DNA of 41,563 nucleotides from a bacterium (lineage in GTDB: Bacteria; UBP13; UBA5359). Below, one piece after another: positions 9,093 to 20,654 of the stretch (its first letter is position 1; the number at the start of each line of letters is the position of its first letter). The stretch lies in assembly GCA_028685295.1 (NCBI GenBank), contig JAQUEL010000007.1:1-41563 (forward strand). Reading direction: 5' to 3'. The position numbers were made by a program, and so were the translations under genes. A model generated the notes under the pieces. That model saw nothing but the letters and a program-made list of their open reading frames with translations. It searched no databases and was not told the origin of the DNA.

Positions 9093-10508
9093 TCAGTAAC
9101 GCCTTCTCAAATTAGATGACAGCACCTCCATCTCCTCACGATATTTAGTCACAGTGCGACGTGCTATGTCATAACCCATACCACAGAGCTTTTTCTTTAT
9201 ATCCTCATCGCTGATGGGATTGCATGGATCTTCCTCCGTAAGGATCTTCCTGATTATCTCCTTTATACTGAGTGAGGCATCAAAAAAGATATCATAATCG
9301 GTTATCTGATGGTTGGGCAGTTCCACATATTTATTGGTCAGAGCCCGGCTAACGGTAGATTCATCTGTCCCCAGGGTAGCGGCCACTCTGGTACGAGTCA
9401 GGGGTATGAGATCCAATCTATCTCCTGTTTCCAGAAATTTGTATTGGAAATCGGCTATGCAACTGGTTATATCATGAATAGTCTGCCGCCGTTGATGAAT
9501 ATTTTTGATCAACAATTCCGCTCTCTCGATATAGCCGACGGTATGTTTTCTTTCCTCCAGAGTATAACTCTGTCTGTTGTTCTGCATATCCAGATAGAGA
9601 TTACGATAGAATTTATTGATTCTGAGCGTTATATCCCGTCCGTCCACAACTTCCACCGTATAAGCCTTTCCATCATAACGGATAATAACATCGGGCCGCG
9701 TAAGGCTTGATCTGGATACCGGCTGAAAATCCCATGAGCTGCGAAACTGCCGGCCGGGATAAGGATTTAAATTATCTCGGATAAAATCGCTGGCTTGTTG
9801 AACCTCAGCCACCTTTACGCCCAAAGCCCTGGCTATATCTTTGTAACGATGGTTCCCCAATTGAAAGAAATAAGATTCAACAATAGCATGAGCCAATGGA
9901 TCTCCCATACCTCTATCTGCCAGATAATCCAGTTGTAACAGAAGGCATTCTTGAGAAGTGCGCGCACCCACACCGGGAGGGTCCAACGTCTGCAATGACT
10001 TTAATACTACGTTAACCCTCTCTTCCGGCAAGCGCAGTGTCTCTGCAACTTCACTCGGGTTACAATGTAAATATCCGTTATCGTCTATGTTGCTGATTAA
10101 AAAATCTCCAATGATATAATCCTCATTGGAGATGATGATACGCAGCAATTGTTGCAAATGTTCCTGTAATGAAACCTCATCCTCCAACCTTGATAACGGG
10201 TCGTATTGATCTTCACAATGGTGATAGTTGGTCCCGTCATAGTAATACCCGAATTGCTCCCACACCAAGTTATCGGCATTCGATCTATCATCGGAAATTG
10301 CGCCGCAGTGTTCACAGATACTGTTCTTCATGAGTTGATTACAGTTGGGGCAAAGGCTCTCTTTTTCCTCTTCCAGCGCAGGGTTCTCCTGAAGTTCGCT
10401 CTCTATCTTCTGCGTGAGTTCCAGCGATGAGAGCTGTAGAATGGCACTGGTAGCTATTATTTTGGGATCTATTTTTTGTGACTGCCTTGTCGTCTGATGA
10501 ACTCTCAT
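9093..10508 (-). CDS. rpoN: RNA polymerase sigma-54 factor with an inserted cysteine knuckle
   Basis: 471-residue sigma-54, the specificity factor for -24/-12 promoters that needs an AAA+ activator to open DNA. Region I with the Gln/Leu-rich activator-interacting part ([18 protein letters not shown] at 23-40) is followed in region II by CPNC (53-56) and CEHC (65-68), a C-X2-C-X8-C-X2-C arrangement that looks like a small zinc ribbon. The core-binding region ([18 protein letters not shown]) and the HTH precede the RpoN box [10 protein letters not shown] at 449-458. The start ATG overlaps the stop of the upstream activator gene by 4 bp (ATGA), so the two are translationally coupled. The cysteine pairs lie in the normally variable acidic linker and are not part of the usual family. 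Assignment is certain; the role of the cysteines is open. Confidence 0.96.
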
Positions 10509-11728
10509 GCCTTCACCTCATTCTCTTTATGATTAAAAGTAAGTTGTATGTTCAGAGGAAGCATCTCCGGCGTCAATTCCTCACAGCGTTCATCAGCCAT
10601 AATAACGGCATATTCCATAGCGTTCTCCAGCTCTCTGATGTTGCCTGGCCAATTATAGCCCTGACAGAGATCGGTCGCCTCGCTGCTTATTTCTCTCAGC
10701 TTTTTACCGTTCTCTTGCGAAAAACGCCTGAGAAAATGTTCTGCCAGCATGGGAATATCCTCAATGCGCTCTCTAAGCGGAGGAGTATGCATCTCTATAA
10801 CCTTAAGACGATAATATAGATCTTCACGGAAATCGTTCTTTTTTACAGCCTCCTCCAGATCGCGATTGGTGGCTGCTATAAGCCTTATATCTACTTTTAT
10901 GGTCTTTGTACCTCCCACCCGCTCGAACTCACGTTCCTGAAGTATACGCAATAGCTTTACCTGAAGTGCAGGACTGATCTCTCCTACTTCATCCAGGAAG
11001 AGAGTACCTCCATCCGCCAGTTCGAACCTGCCCGGTTTTTGCGCCATAGCTCCCGTAAAGGCGCCCTTTTCATGGCCGAATAGTTCACTTTCCAACAGAT
11101 CGTTGGAAAGTGCAGCACAATTGACGGCGATAAATGGATTATCGGACCGCCGGCTATTACGATGTATAGCTCTGGCCACTAATTCCTTACCGGTGCCGCT
11201 CTCGCCCCTAATCAGTACAGTAGCCCGGCTTCCGGCCACCTTTTCTATCATATCCGTTATTTCGGCCATGGTACGGCTATCTCCGATCATTTCGTCACAG
11301 GCGCAGCGCCGGCCTAATTCCTGTTTAAGAATCCGGTTCTCCTTGACCAGGCCGGCCATATTGAGTGCGTTTCGAGCTACAATCTTGACCTCATCCATTT
11401 CAAAGGGCTTGGTGATATAATCCCTCGCTCCTATCTTCATAGCTTCAACAGCTGTTTTAATAGTGCCGTAAGCAGTCATAATGACTACAGCCGTACCGGG
11501 CCTGCGCTGTTGAATTTCATGCAACAGATCGATCCCGCCCATCTGGGGCATGACCAAATCAGTTATGATCAGATCAAAAGCTTCTTCTTCAAGAAGTTTC
11601 AATGCAGCTTCGCCGTTATCCGCTGATTGTACCGTATATCCGTCTTTGCGTAAGATAGCGCCGAGTATGTGCCTTATATTGGGTTCATCATCGACGATGA
11701 GTACTTTTGATTGTTGTTGTTTAGCCAT
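10505..11728 (-). CDS. NtrC-type sigma-54 activator response regulator lacking a DNA-binding domain
   Basis: 407-residue response regulator. The receiver domain (1-125) carries the phosphorylation site D57 in ITDLVMP, acidic pocket DD at 13-14 and K107. The AAA+ domain (about 145-380) has Walker A GESGTGK (175-181), the sigma-54-contacting loop GAFTGA (222-227) and Walker B LFLDE ending at 247. The protein stops about 27 residues after the AAA+ fold ([12 protein letters not shown]...), where family members continue into a Fis-type HTH. No such helix pair is visible, so it probably activates from solution or finds its promoter through another protein, as reported for a few activators such as FlgR. 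It follows the kinase gene by 12 bp and overlaps rpoN by 4 bp. It is most likely the cognate partner of that kinase. Confidence 0.93.
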
Positions 11729-11740
11729 ATTGCTCCTCCT

Positions 11741-14296
11741 CTATCTTGTCAATTGCGGACTACCGACGTCCCGGCAGCTTCGCATTAACTCTTCCGCCTC
11801 TTCTCTGGTCCTGCACGGGATATATACGCTGAAGATGCTACCGTAACCAGCGCGACTGCTGATACGGATAAAGCCTCCATGGCTTTCCACTATTTGATGT
11901 ACTATAGAAAGTCCGAGCCCGCTGCCACCGTTCTTGGTAGTAAAAAAGGGAACGAATATCTTTTCCAGATCATCCCGGGCGATACCACAACCGCTATCTC
12001 CTATATCCACCCGTATATAACCGCCACCGCCGGTTTCCTCCCTATCGCGAGTCAGGGCGCTGGATACGGTCAGCGTTCCTCCGCTCTGCATCGCTTGCAG
12101 AGCGTTGATCAGAAGGTTAAGGAATACCTGCTCCAGATGATCGCTGTCTATATATATTCCCGGCAGCTTGCTGGAAAGGCGTACTTTTGTTTTGATGTCT
12201 CTCTGTTCCGTTTCTACAGCCAGAAGATCCAGGCATCGTCCTACTACCTCATTAAGATCATGACGGCGTAAATTGGGCGGGTTGGGCCTGGCAAAGGTGA
12301 GAAAATCTGTAATTACTCTATTAAGCCTATCTGTCTCTTGGCTAATGATAGCGCTGAATTCAGACAACATGGATTGCTCTCCTAATTCGCTTTGAAGATA
12401 TTGAGCGGCACCTTTGATAGCGCTGAGAGGGTTCCTTATCTCATGCGCTACGTTGGCGGCCAGCTGCCCTATAGCTGCCAATTGGCTTACTCTGCGGACC
12501 TGGCCCTCTATAGCCTTGCGTTCGGTTATATTTTCAAACACCAGAACTACTCCTATAATCTCACCGGAACTGCTTTTCAAGCGGGAACAATTCAGATTAA
12601 AGGTAAGCTCTCCTTTTTTTCCGGGCAAAGATATCTCGTATCCTCGTACCGTTCTTCCATAGCGCATTACCTGACGCTTCACCTCGTCTATACGCCGGCA
12701 GGCTTCGGCATCTATTCCTCCCATGACATCCATAAGGCTTCCACCCAGGACCTTACGTCGTCCCAGGCGCGTAAACTTTTCCATGGCGGCATTCCAAAGG
12801 CTTATGCGCCCCTCGGTATCCACCGTAACCACTCCCGAAGCAATACTGCGAAGTATGTTCACCGTATAGCTGGTTAGAGTATCCAGCACTTCCAATGATT
12901 TATATGTGGCCGCTGCCTGAGAGGCAATAATTGAAAGCATGCGGGCATGATCCTCCGTATAAACAGCGGGCTCGCGACTCTGGACAGCCAGAATACCTAT
13001 AGCTCTGTGCTCCACTACCAGCGGTATTACTATGCCTGACCGCATTCCTCTCTTCTCCGCCAGGTCTTGGGATAGCTTTTCTCTGGCAGTATCGCTGAAA
13101 ATAACTGCCTTTCCTTCATGAAAGGTCCAGGCATAGGCATTATCCTGGTCGGCACAATCGATAATCCGGCATGGAGGATCGGTTGCTGTTCGCGAAGCAT
13201 TGAGTATCAGCCTCTCATTGATATCATCGTAAACATAGATGAAGCTCTCATCATATTTAACGACACCGCTTATTATATCCAGAATGACATGATTGGCTTC
13301 CTCGGCATTAGAGGCTGAGCTCAATCTGGCTGAAGCATAATAGAGCGTCGATAACTCCAGGGTTTTTTGCTCTGCGGCACGCTTGTAGGAGAGAGCATTC
13401 TTTAATATCACTGCCGCCTGAGCAGATAATATAGTTAGCAGACGTACCAGCTCCGGCGGATACTCCACCCCGGTGGATGCGGCCAATATCAGCAAACCTA
13501 TATTTTTCCCTTCGGCTCGCAGCGGCAGCGCCACATAGCTGTTCAACCAGGGGCAAACCTTATGCAGAGCATCAAAACGATCCTCCGCACTGGCGGCATC
13601 ATGTACGAACGGATTGGGCAGTTCTTCAACCAGAAGATAGAGGTCTTCTCCAAGAAGCTCCTCCAAGCCGGAAGCAAAGGATGCCGCCTCTCCTTGAACA
13701 TATTCAAGAGTAAGCCGGCGTGCTTTTTCATCCAAAAGCAATGCCAGCCCGCTATCGCAATTGAGTATCTTGCCTGCCAGGCCCATAAGAAAGGAGACCA
13801 CTCTGTCAAGATCAGGAGAGGCACTGATTACTCGGCTGGCCTCATAAATGGTATTCAGTTCGTTCAGGCGCTGCTCGCAATTCTCCAGCAGCGCAATATT
13901 CTCCAAAGCCCGAAAGGCCTGCCGGGCCAAAGGCATCAGTATCTCTTTGGCCTGAGGATCGATATGGATAGAACCTCTTTCTGCGGGGAAATATATATGG
14001 ACATATCCTCTGGTTATCTCTCCAACAGCTACATCCAGGCTAACCATATCACCGTTCTTCGGCGTTTCTCCCCAACGAAAGATATTCTCTATTACGCCTC
14101 TGCAATCAAGACGATAAATCGATATGCCTGAAGCTGGAGTCAGCCGTTCTATCCATTCCTGCAGAATTGCTATTATTCGCTCAGGATCCGGGAGTGTGCT
14201 TATCTGTTCAACGGCAGTCAGAATTTCAAGGCATATATCGGACGGCATATGCCGCTCTCCCGCTCTTTTCAAATTACTTACATCCAAATACATCAT
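11741..14296 (-). CDS. Multi-GAF/PAS sensor histidine kinase
   Basis: 851-residue soluble (no transmembrane segment) NtrB-like kinase. Order: a GAF-like domain at about 20-130, GAF at 145-300, GAF at 325-470, PAS at 475-595, HisKA with the phospho-acceptor H618 in AHEIRNPLSAIKG, and HATPase_c with N-box N727/N731, DIGDSGCG (D767) and GGSGLGLSIV. It should sense small ligands or redox/energy signals in the cytosol and phosphorylate the activator encoded 12 bp downstream. The first ATG (14296) has GAGGGG very close by, and an alternative ATG is at codon 17 after GGGAGAG; the first is kept. A 5' leader of about 74 nt would result from the sigma-54-type promoter at 14381-14396, implying positive autoregulation of the operon. 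Ligands of the GAF domains cannot be predicted. Confidence 0.94.
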   Translation of the reverse strand: MMYLDVSNLKRAGERHMPSDICLEILTAVEQISTLPDPERIIAILQEWIERLTPASGISIYRLDCRGVIENIFRWGETPKNGDMVSLDVAVGEITRGYVHIYFPAERGSIHIDPQAKEILMPLARQAFRALENIALLENCEQRLNELNTIYEASRVISASPDLDRVVSFLMGLAGKILNCDSGLALLLDEKARRLTLEYVQGEAASFASGLEELLGEDLYLLVEELPNPFVHDAASAEDRFDALHKVCPWLNSYVALPLRAEGKNIGLLILAASTGVEYPPELVRLLTILSAQAAVILKNALSYKRAAEQKTLELSTLYYASARLSSASNAEEANHVILDIISGVVKYDESFIYVYDDINERLILNASRTATDPPCRIIDCADQDNAYAWTFHEGKAVIFSDTAREKLSQDLAEKRGMRSGIVIPLVVEHRAIGILAVQSREPAVYTEDHARMLSIIASQAAATYKSLEVLDTLTSYTVNILRSIASGVVTVDTEGRISLWNAAMEKFTRLGRRKVLGGSLMDVMGGIDAEACRRIDEVKRQVMRYGRTVRGYEISLPGKKGELTFNLNCSRLKSSSGEIIGVVLVFENITERKAIEGQVRRVSQLAAIGQLAANVAHEIRNPLSAIKGAAQYLQSELGEQSMLSEFSAIISQETDRLNRVITDFLTFARPNPPNLRRHDLNEVVGRCLDLLAVETEQRDIKTKVRLSSKLPGIYIDSDHLEQVFLNLLINALQAMQSGGTLTVSSALTRDREETGGGGYIRVDIGDSGCGIARDDLEKIFVPFFTTKNGGSGLGLSIVHQIVESHGGFIRISSRAGYGSIFSVYIPCRTREEAEELMRSCRDVGSPQLTR

Positions 14297-14376: not shown

Positions 14377-14399
14377 CAATGGCATGATTATTGCCATTG
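14377..14399. promoter_or_regulatory. Sigma-54-type promoter inside a perfect inverted repeat
   Basis: CAATGGCA and TGCCATTG form a perfect 8-bp inverted repeat around a 7-nt centre. On the plus strand 14380-14395 reads TGGCATGATTATTGCC, matching the sigma-54 consensus TGGCACG-N4-TTGCW at 10 of 12 defined positions with the obligatory GG-N10-GC spacing. On the minus strand, facing the kinase gene, TGGCAATAATCATGCC keeps GG-N10-GC and matches 8 of 12. It lies 80 bp upstream of the kinase-activator-rpoN-BON operon. It could instead be, or also be, an operator. Confidence 0.6.
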
Positions 14400-14461
14400 A
14401 CTATCCTATTTATACCCGAGTTGGAACAAAGATAAACTTGTGCAGTTTGGAGGGGGGCTTT

Positions 14462-15253
14462 TTATTCGTAGTTTATTGTGAAAAAGGTGCCGGTAGAGAT
14501 GTGCTCGGCAAAAATTTCAAATGTATTGGCTCCCGGTTCAAGTTGTAGGATGGGCCGAAAAGAGCTGTATCTCTTTCCGTTTATGACGGCATATTCGGCG
14601 GCTGCATTATCCCATTTCAATACTCCCTGTCCGGATGCGCCATGCCAGACAACCAGATCGGGGTTGTTTACTCCTTCGGCACAAAGCATGGATAGCCGGA
14701 CCTCGCTCTTATCCGTCTTGTCGGGGATATCGATAACTTCCGCCTTACTCTCACTCCAATAAAAGATAATTTCTCTATTGCAATAGTGCAGGCTTTTGTT
14801 CAATAGCAGCGATAGATACCTGGCAGGCACGAAGAGCCTTCCCTGCTGAAGAATTGAGGGATAGCCCATTTGCTCGGAGTATATACCAGCCGGAGCAGTA
14901 CCAAAGAAAGCGCGGTCGTCATCAGGGAGGAAATAAAGAGCTTTCCTTAATCTCCATCTATCAATAAAGGATATTTCTGCTTGCCGTACCTGACTATTCC
15001 AGCTTATCTGTGCCTTTGCCAAACAGGCGGCTGACCGAAGAGGTATATAAGATACACCATTGAGATTAAAGGAAGCGGCAGCCAATGACACGGCCTTACC
15101 GTCGCATACGGCCTTATCTTCACCGATCTTCATCCGGACCGTATGCTGGCTTTTATAAATCCTGATATGATAGGCAGGATCGGCCTGTAACGGTAGTTGG
15201 TCGCAAAAAAGCAAAGGGAAAAGCAGCAACAGCATCATCTTGATTTTGCGCAC
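14462..15253 (-). CDS. Secreted copper-amine-oxidase-N-like (stalk) domain protein
   Basis: 263-residue exported protein. Residues 1-24 are a signal peptide (basic MRKIK, then a Leu/Phe core, probable cleavage after LQA). The segment at about 35-105 (VRMKIGEDKAVCDGKAVSL, then a VSYIPLRSAACLAKAQISWN-like run) matches the copper amine oxidase N-terminal/stalk domain (PF07833), a module common in envelope proteins of Firmicutes and Armatimonadota, and FVPARYLSLLLNK further on is a second half of the same fold. The C-terminal ~80 residues form an unassigned beta-rich region. The GTG start is supported by GGAGG upstream. It precedes the sensor kinase gene in the same direction, with the sigma-54-type palindrome in between. 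No catalytic function is visible. Confidence 0.75.
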   Translation of the reverse strand: MRKIKMMLLLLFPLLFCDQLPLQADPAYHIRIYKSQHTVRMKIGEDKAVCDGKAVSLAAASFNLNGVSYIPLRSAACLAKAQISWNSQVRQAEISFIDRWRLRKALYFLPDDDRAFFGTAPAGIYSEQMGYPSILQQGRLFVPARYLSLLLNKSLHYCNREIIFYWSESKAEVIDIPDKTDKSEVRLSMLCAEGVNNPDLVVWHGASGQGVLKWDNAAAEYAVINGKRYSSFRPILQLEPGANTFEIFAEHISTGTFFTINYE

Positions 15254-15281
15254 AACCGGCCCTCCGAGCCTACTGAGGGGG

Positions 15282-15312
15282 AGGTCTGCACTTTTGGCAA
15301 AAGTGTAGACCT
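15282..15312. repeat. 14-bp inverted repeat (hairpin) in a divergent intergenic region
   Basis: AGGTCTGCACTTTT (15282-15295) and AAAAGTGTAGACCT (15299-15312) pair over 14 positions with a single G-T type mismatch around a GGC centre. It lies just upstream of the stalk-protein gene and next to a second structured block. No T-run follows on either strand, so it is not a classical terminator. Confidence 0.7.
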
Positions 15313-15335
15313 AATCCCAAAGTTCAAAGTTATTG

Positions 15336-18526: not shown

Positions 18527-19618
18527 CTTATTCAAATCAAAGACTATCTGCTGCCATCTCTTACTGTAAAGTTCTGGGTCATGGACCTGCAGAATATATT
18601 CCCTGGAAAGAATCGATAGCCGTTCTCGATCTGCAACGGCTTCATCTATCAGCTGGAGATATTCAGAGGCATCAGCATCCGTATCCAGAATATAGTGCCC
18701 GATAACGGAATCTCTTTTGTGAATATCCGACATCAGCCCTACCTTGCTCCCCACTACCGGAATACCGGAAGATAAAGCCTCAGCAACAGCCAACCCATAT
18801 CCCTCATATCGGCTGGGCAACAGAAAAACATCTGCAGACCTATATGCGGTTTTCATTGCTGCCGGATTCAATCCCAGCATATAAATTACATTTGAGGTAT
18901 TTCTTATTCTGTAAGTTTCTTCCATCTCACCGGCGCATATCAGGAAATTATATTTTTTTTGTGATAAGTAAATGATCTCGTTAAGAATATCGGCACCTTT
19001 GGCATATTCAACCCGGCCGACAAAAATGATCACCGGTGCATCCGATTCAAAGATCCTTTGCCTGTTCATCTTACGCTCTTCATCGAAAACGGGGGTAAAG
19101 AAAGAGGTGTCAACGGCGTTCTCTATGATATGCGACGTACTGAGCCCATAATATCGCTTGAGCTCTTTAGCACAATATTCGGATACAGCCACCACCGTTT
19201 TACCGCGGCCGCTGAAACGCTCCAGCATCTCCATGGATTGCAAACGCAGATGGCTAAAAAAAGAAAGATGGCTCGCCACTGCCCTTCTATAGCCTGCCAC
19301 CGTGCCGTGATAGATATGTATACAGCACTTGCGTTTGATATGCATACCGTAAAAACCGTTTGTTATAATAGCGGCATACTCTTCGCCTCGGCTAAGCTTA
19401 CGAGCAAATATTATATTGATTGCAAATTCTTTAAGCCTTAACCAGGATAAGATAGCAAGAAAAAAGATCTGTCTGGGAGAGAGCGCTTCCTCTACCAGCC
19501 AATCCACCTTATATCCGGCTTGGGAAAGAAGAGTTTCAATTGATGCCAGGACCCGTTCTACTCCACCGGGGTAATCGGCTGAGCACAAGTTGATGATGAG
19601 AATCTTATCACCAGGCAC
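18473..19618 (-). CDS. GT4-family glycosyltransferase
   Basis: 381-residue GT-B fold retaining glycosyltransferase, cytosolic or membrane-peripheral, transferring a sugar from a nucleotide donor onto a glycan or lipid acceptor. The N-terminal domain begins with the acceptor-side GGVERVL motif (18-24), and the donor half has VGRVEYAKGADIL (200-212) and the E-X7-E motif with E272 and E280 in PSRYEGYGLAVAEALSSG. Start is GTG at 19618, overlapping the end of the upstream beta-propeller gene by 11 bp, so the two are cotranscribed and probably coupled. The 3' end overlaps the convergent adenylate-forming gene by 54 bp. Donor and acceptor cannot be told from sequence. Confidence 0.92.
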   Translation of the reverse strand: MPGDKILIINLCSADYPGGVERVLASIETLLSQAGYKVDWLVEEALSPRQIFFLAILSWLRLKEFAINIIFARKLSRGEEYAAIITNGFYGMHIKRKCCIHIYHGTVAGYRRAVASHLSFFSHLRLQSMEMLERFSGRGKTVVAVSEYCAKELKRYYGLSTSHIIENAVDTSFFTPVFDEERKMNRQRIFESDAPVIIFVGRVEYAKGADILNEIIYLSQKKYNFLICAGEMEETYRIRNTSNVIYMLGLNPAAMKTAYRSADVFLLPSRYEGYGLAVAEALSSGIPVVGSKVGLMSDIHKRDSVIGHYILDTDADASEYLQLIDEAVADRERLSILSREYILQVHDPELYSKRWQQIVFDLNKSNIADNSSEFTIFFPGD

Positions 19619-20564
19619 TTTGCATCTCTTTTAACAGACAACTATAAGGCCTGCCCGGCCTGACCAATCTGTAGCCATCGACAAAAGCCAGCCAGTTATC
19701 CTTATCTAGGCGATAGGGGTCGATGTTATGCATGCCTTCAGCGTTCCACCCTCTGCCGTTACCACTAATAACCGGCTTGGCGGCAATAGGCCTTTCGGCA
19801 TATCCGAAGATGGATAATTCGGTTATCTCAAAGGCCCAAACCTGATAACCGTAAGTAGGATAATCATCCTGAACATAGCGTATGATGCGGCCGTCCGCAA
19901 ATGTGATTCTACCTCCGCATCTGCAGAATCTTCTGTCGGCGCTGACAAAGGGGTTTTGAGGATGCTCATGCCATGGCCCTGTAGGCCGATCTGCATAAAA
20001 GAGACAGAGAGTATCTATTCTATCCTTCCGCCCTGTCGATGTCAGCAGCCACCATCTGTTATCATACAAAAATATACACGGATCAACAAAATTTCCTTCT
20101 TTTAAACTACCTGCAAAGGCCCATTTTTCAGGAAAATCTATTGCTTTATAAAGCCTGAGAGAGCCTGAAGCGGAAGCTTCGGGTAATATATAATATAGGC
20201 CTTCCCACTCAAAAATATAAGGATACGAAAGGTGAAAAGGTTCCTCCAGGACAATACGTCCGTATCTCCAGCTATATCCATCATCACTGGTAGCATAACC
20301 GATAGATCCTCGCCCATTATCGGCATTTACAACTTCAAAAAAGAGGTACCAACCTTCATTTCTGCGAAGGGCAAAGGGATCTGCCACAGCTGCAGCCGGT
20401 ATATCAGTAATATCAGCTACCGTTAGAACAGGGTTTTTTAGATTACTGCACGGCATCAAAGAGAGGGGGGAGTTGCCCGAGTAAAGACCTATAGACCATT
20501 CGTCCTGCAAAGTTATGATACTGTATAGCTGGCGTTTCAACAGACGTTTTAAACAGAGTGTCAT
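19608..20564 (-). CDS. GINT1-N-like/GH43-type five-bladed beta-propeller protein
   Basis: A 318-residue protein with repeated blade motifs (ADPFALRRNEGWYLFFEV, GSIGYATSDDGYSW, YPYIFEWEGLYYILPEA, FVDPCIFLYDNRWWLL), the pattern of a five-bladed propeller. It resembles the N-terminal domain of glucosamine inositolphosphorylceramide transferase 1, a domain that in bacteria occurs alone or joined to sugar formyltransferases and glycosyltransferases in surface-glycan loci. The conserved acidic residues after Ala-Asp-Pro and Val-Asp-Pro are arranged as in GH43/GH32-like folds, so a glycosidase or sugar-transfer role in the cytosol is possible. There is no signal peptide. The ATG at 20564 follows GAGG closely; a GTG at 20573 is the alternative. 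It is coupled to the downstream GT4 gene. Confidence 0.72.
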   Translation of the reverse strand: MTLCLKRLLKRQLYSIITLQDEWSIGLYSGNSPLSLMPCSNLKNPVLTVADITDIPAAAVADPFALRRNEGWYLFFEVVNADNGRGSIGYATSDDGYSWRYGRIVLEEPFHLSYPYIFEWEGLYYILPEASASGSLRLYKAIDFPEKWAFAGSLKEGNFVDPCIFLYDNRWWLLTSTGRKDRIDTLCLFYADRPTGPWHEHPQNPFVSADRRFCRCGGRITFADGRIIRYVQDDYPTYGYQVWAFEITELSIFGYAERPIAAKPVISGNGRGWNAEGMHNIDPYRLDKDNWLAFVDGYRLVRPGRPYSCLLKEMQSAW

Positions 20565-20654
20565 ATTCCTCACACCACAGGCTAAGTTTCTTATATAATC
20601 AAACCAATCAATCTTTACCCGGGTTAAGAGGAAATAAACATCTATTATTCCTGT

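Follow-up and report, generated by a model that had tools for sequence, protein, structure and literature searches.

Sigma-54 may curb its own synthesis in UBP13 through a conserved site that overlaps the predicted start of a SigB-type promoter and points mostly backward

In Escherichia coli, sigma-54 represses promoters that are overlapped by its binding site, also in vitro, with the C kept at −12 (PMC4551910, PMC4591121), and GG and TGC are the most important bases of the E. coli motif (PMC4591121). Autoregulation of rpoN via sigma-54 promoters is reported for several phyla (PMC12316311). The Bacillus SigB consensus is GTTTAA-N15(±2)-GGGTAT, with N14 apparently being optimal (PMC9847131), and two described activators, CtcC of Chlamydia and FlgR of Helicobacter, lack a DNA-binding domain (PMC7482065, PMC9696931). 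As far as our literature search showed, regulation in UBP13 is unstudied.

Here, we describe a locus in which elements of these systems occur side by side. The window is a 41.6-kb stretch of one UBP13 genome (G000), which we compared with the relatives G001 and G002. Two of these three genomes are close and G002 is divergent; a named-genome scan for a wider comparison returned the same two relatives again. The sigma-54 matrix scan covered the window, and sigma-54 and SigB sites at the genome level were sampled by pattern searches and in selected stretches.

Table 1. Positions of the features at the sigma-54 locus, and loci of strong sigma-54 promoters
Feature	Position or locus	Strand	Description
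SigB-type promoter, GTTTAT-N14-GGGTAT	14437-14412	−	Operon-facing; predicted start ~14402-14405
Inverted repeat, CAATGGCA-TGATTAT-TGCCATTG	14377-14399		Perfect 8-bp arms, 7-nt spacer
Strong −24/−12 sigma-54 motif, ATGGCATGATTATTGCC	14379-14395	+	GG at 14381-14382, GC at 14393-14394
Weak mirror sigma-54 motif, ATGGCAATAATCATGCC	14381-14397	−	Operon-facing; predicted start ~14370
Operon gene 1, sensor kinase (851 aa)	11741-14296	−	GAF-GAF-PAS-HisKA-HATPase (Pfam)
Operon gene 2, NtrC-type response regulator (407 aa)	10505-11728	−	AAA+ sigma-54 activator domain (Pfam)
Operon gene 3, rpoN, sigma-54 (471 aa)	9093-10508	−	Pfam and TIGR02395
Upstream gene ("stalk protein" in the original prediction)	14462-15253	−	Copper amine oxidase N-terminal domain (PF07833)
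Strong sigma-54 promoters	L137, L238, L135; L244, L248, L229; L185		

The kinase-activator-rpoN operon and its SigB-type promoter

The operon carries the only sigma-54 and the only sigma-54 activator that we found. The rpoN gene is single copy, and its RpoN box reads as in Geobacter (PMC2725144). Shortly after its activator-interacting domain, the protein has a Cys-rich, zinc-ribbon-like insert. The NtrC-type regulator stops behind the AAA+ lid and lacks a C-terminal DNA-binding domain (no helix-turn-helix by Pfam); its domain set, a receiver plus the AAA+ sigma-54 domain, fits the enhancer-independent FlgR/CtcC type. Each UBP13 genome has one strong match to PF00158, which is the operon's activator, and the remaining matches (20 to 35 bits versus about 256) look like other AAA+ proteins.

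Ahead of the operon, we found a SigB-type promoter that is absent from the original prediction. It differs from the Bacillus SigB consensus by one base, is conserved in all three UBP13 genomes, and has its predicted start at the edge of the palindrome described below. A search for GTTTAW-N13..15-GGGTAW gave 15, 12, and 14 matches in the three genomes, compared with 5, 3, and 2 matches for the reversed control, and most of the matches examined are intergenic and directly ahead of genes. A second SigB-type match in the window, GTTTATTTCCTCTTAACCCGGGTAA (20615-20639, minus strand), lies just ahead of the minus-strand gene 19608-20573, which has a GINT1_N domain and is followed by a glycosyltransferase gene; G001 has a counterpart of this match.

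The genome encodes one sigma factor of the SigB/F/G family (TIGR02980; 284.8 bits, cut-off of 234.35), and its gene comes directly after RsbW-like and RsbV-like genes. This rsbV-rsbW-sigB-like cluster (L206:2370-3922 on G000:C36), with a YtxH-like gene ahead of it, constitutes a partner-switching stress module in UBP13. No SigB-family factor turned up in the assembly of G002, which is 87% complete, despite the excess of SigB-type sites there. The other sigma-70-family genes resemble RpoD, two ECF factors nearest to SigW, and three SigH-like factors, which resemble the sporulation sigma-H family and all occur in one genome (L090, L093, and L096).

Sigma-54 motifs at the palindrome

The original prediction had described a perfect 8-bp inverted repeat with GG-N10-GC on either strand, which we confirmed (Table 1). 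It had also proposed a search for the palindrome elsewhere in the genome, and the exact sequence occurs only once in G000. One-mismatch variants were near the control level (11 versus 8 for the reversed pattern), and we rejected a palindrome-defined regulon, as a second copy is absent from all three UBP13 genomes. Taken alone, the symmetry is only weakly unusual: when the 165-nt region is shuffled, 2.3% of the resulting sequences contain a perfect 8-bp repeat with a 3- to 12-nt loop, and over a dozen further such repeats occur in the window.

The 21-nt core of the palindrome, AATGGCAATAATCATGCCATT, is identical in all three genomes, spacer included. Between G000 and G002, the core and the −35 and −10 blocks together make up 46 identical nucleotides, and 37 of 92 aligned positions match outside these three blocks. 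The AA/TT flanking the sigma-54 motif is also conserved.

For scoring of the two strands, we used a matrix built from 42 intergenic sense ChIP-seq sites of E. coli (PMC4591121) and scanned 83,094 window positions with 4,000 shuffles as the null. The plus-strand motif scored 16.45 on this E. coli matrix, compared with a median of 16.3 for true E. coli sites. It was the top of all scanned positions (the runner-up scored 11.65), and none of the 4,000 shuffles reached its score. Furthermore, this motif is retained in all three genomes and has the attributes of a sigma-54 site: GG and TGC, 10 nt between GG and GC, and a score like that of true sites. The motif on the minus strand retains GG and TGC as well. 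Of the two, the well-formed one is directed away from the operon and toward no gene, and consensus spacing puts its predicted start at ~14406. Other exact matches to TGGCAYG-N4-TTGC in G000 are intragenic. We found no sigma-70-type promoter at the palindrome, as the matches in the region are at the shuffle level.

Clear sigma-54 promoters of the same −24/−12 form occur elsewhere in the genus, with scores of 17.9 to 19.6. One lies ∼44 nt ahead of a polysaccharide-export gene (PF02563 plus SLBB) and another ahead of a 127-aa gene without a Pfam match, and all three genomes retain both of these promoters, spacers included. Since genuine sigma-54 promoters of the genus also keep their spacers, the invariant spacer of the palindrome does not speak against sigma-54 and would fit a hairpin as well. 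In G000, a strong sigma-54 promoter also precedes the gene for a probable secreted protein.

A plus-strand transcript from the palindrome would oppose the 3′ end of the upstream gene. The nearest downstream open reading frame on the plus strand, at 14478-14762, was rejected as a protein gene: it has a stop in G001, and the substitutions over it fit the minus-strand gene, whose third codon positions change most. No conserved plus-strand open reading frame was found downstream of the palindrome and no plus-strand terminator in the promoter region; the stalk gene was not seen in G002, where 226 nt of contig remain beyond the promoter region. The antisense RNA against the stalk gene that had been proposed could still arise by weak initiation, but neither a conserved target nor a plus-strand terminator was found for it. 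As we found no gene or RNA in the plus direction, we refer to a predicted binding site rather than a predicted gene promoter. At the contig end of G002, short GGAGTCA-like tandem repeats adjoin the promoter (L217:6330-6514) and may explain the assembly break there. The only match to a known RNA family, PreQ1-III at 15230-15335 on the minus strand, upstream of the stalk gene, scored 20.4 bits, far below its threshold of 63 bits, and is probably due to chance.

Proposed negative feedback and alternative readings

Because the sigma-54 site is within the predicted footprint of another sigma factor's promoter, sigma-54 may restrict its own synthesis. The SigB-family promoter would transcribe the operon from ~14404, and sigma-54 polymerase would sit on the palindrome, predominantly in plus-strand orientation, across the sigma-B start. 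Because this site sits just past the predicted sigma-B start and would have its own start at ~14406, the two polymerases should be unable to bind together, and their competition would subject the only sigma-54 found and the only activator found to negative feedback. Once the activator is on, the same sigma-54 complex may start antisense transcription that runs back across the sigma-B promoter, with a weaker forward transcript from ~14370 possibly arising at the imperfect mirror motif. We infer sigma-54 binding and initiation, the start sites, repression, and the sign of the regulation from what the sequences show: how well the elements are conserved and how strong they are relative to one another, the presence of a SigB-family factor, and sigma-54 promoters of canonical form at other loci of the genus. 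Such competition is documented in E. coli, and we therefore favor negative feedback over positive autoregulation, an RNA element, or an unrelated operator, with a probability of roughly 0.5. Counting against it, sigma-54 alone needs neither perfect symmetry nor the AA/TT outside its motif, the SigB-family factor is undetected in G002, the sample comprises three genomes of the phylum of which two are close, and all start positions are predictions from consensus spacing.

The original prediction read the palindrome as a sigma-54 promoter that implies autoregulation. Motifs on both strands beside the rpoN operon do support some autoregulation; the positive, operon-facing version is weakened, as the better match faces away. 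In that version, a two-way sigma-54 promoter would amplify the operon from its operon-facing half once the activator is phosphorylated, with sigma-B providing basal transcription. The retained GG and TGC of the minus-strand motif, the plausible leader lengths in all three genomes, and the precedents in several phyla fit this idea. However, the minus-strand motif scores 8.73, in the bottom range of true E. coli sites (rank 20 in the window; shuffle P = 0.049) and well under the promoters of the genus, and we consider positive autoregulation unlikely.

The palindrome could also act as a two-way switch, a symmetric element at which sigma-54 binds either strand over the sigma-B start. Inactive sigma-54 would then repress, and activated sigma-54 would block sigma-B by antisense transcription and sustain the operon through the mirror motif, amounting to a hand-over from sigma-B to sigma-54. 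We regard this scheme as improbable.

Alternatively, the repeat may function in RNA, where positions of roughly +4 to +27 in the sigma-B transcript would form a hairpin (an 8-bp stem with four G-C pairs and an interrupted U run) that protects the 5′ end or, with the U-rich stretch, acts as a weak attenuator. The hairpin (−9.3 kcal/mol) beats nearly all shuffles, its loop is conserved, and it is the region's sole terminator-like match, followed by TATTTTTC, with a longer T run in G002. Yet terminator-like matches in the region are at the chance level (1 found versus 1.3 expected), the T run is broken in G001, and the outermost pair is lost in G002 without compensation. An RNA element would also leave the very strong sigma-54 match unexplained, and we consider it quite improbable. 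An operator for an unrelated dimeric repressor just after the sigma-B start would account for the perfect symmetry, the placement, and the AA/TT conserved beyond the sigma-54 motif but is very unlikely, given the lack of a second copy in the three genomes, the near-control number of one-mismatch matches, the lack of a DNA-binding regulator among the neighboring genes examined, and the equally invariant asymmetric spacer.

Comparison with known systems

Each part of the arrangement is known already, and what is new is their combination: our limited literature search found no precedent for a SigB-type promoter that precedes a sigma-54 operon and carries a conserved, mostly backward-facing sigma-54 site on its start. 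If negative feedback operates as proposed, a whole sigma-54 pathway, consisting of one kinase, one activator lacking a DNA-binding domain, and one sigma factor, would be under the control of a general-stress-type sigma factor, with feedback built in through promoter competition. The locus would then offer a compact and testable example of how two unrelated sigma families compete for a single start site, and stress signaling would be linked to polysaccharide export, the clearest sigma-54 target in the UBP13 genomes examined.

As in the sigma-54-repressed promoters of E. coli, the UBP13 locus has a −24/−12 site with GC at −12 inside the promoter footprint of another sigma factor. In UBP13, however, the other sigma factor is of the SigB type, the rpoN operon itself would be targeted, and the site forms a palindrome directed against the gene. 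The sigma-54 motif directly upstream of a sigma-54-encoding operon recalls described rpoN autoregulation (PMC12316311), although in UBP13, the strong motif faces away and the operon-facing one is weak. The GTTTAW-N14-GGGTAW promoters and the rsbV-rsbW-sigB gene order resemble the Bacillus SigB regulon with its RsbV/RsbW partner switching (PMC9847131), but the phylum is another one, and one predicted UBP13 target is the entire sigma-54 pathway. Finally, a single sigma-54 activator without a DNA-binding domain is paired with one kinase, as in CtcB/CtcC of Chlamydia and FlgS/FlgR of Helicobacter; unlike in these bacteria, the UBP13 kinase, activator, and rpoN share one operon behind a SigB-type promoter.
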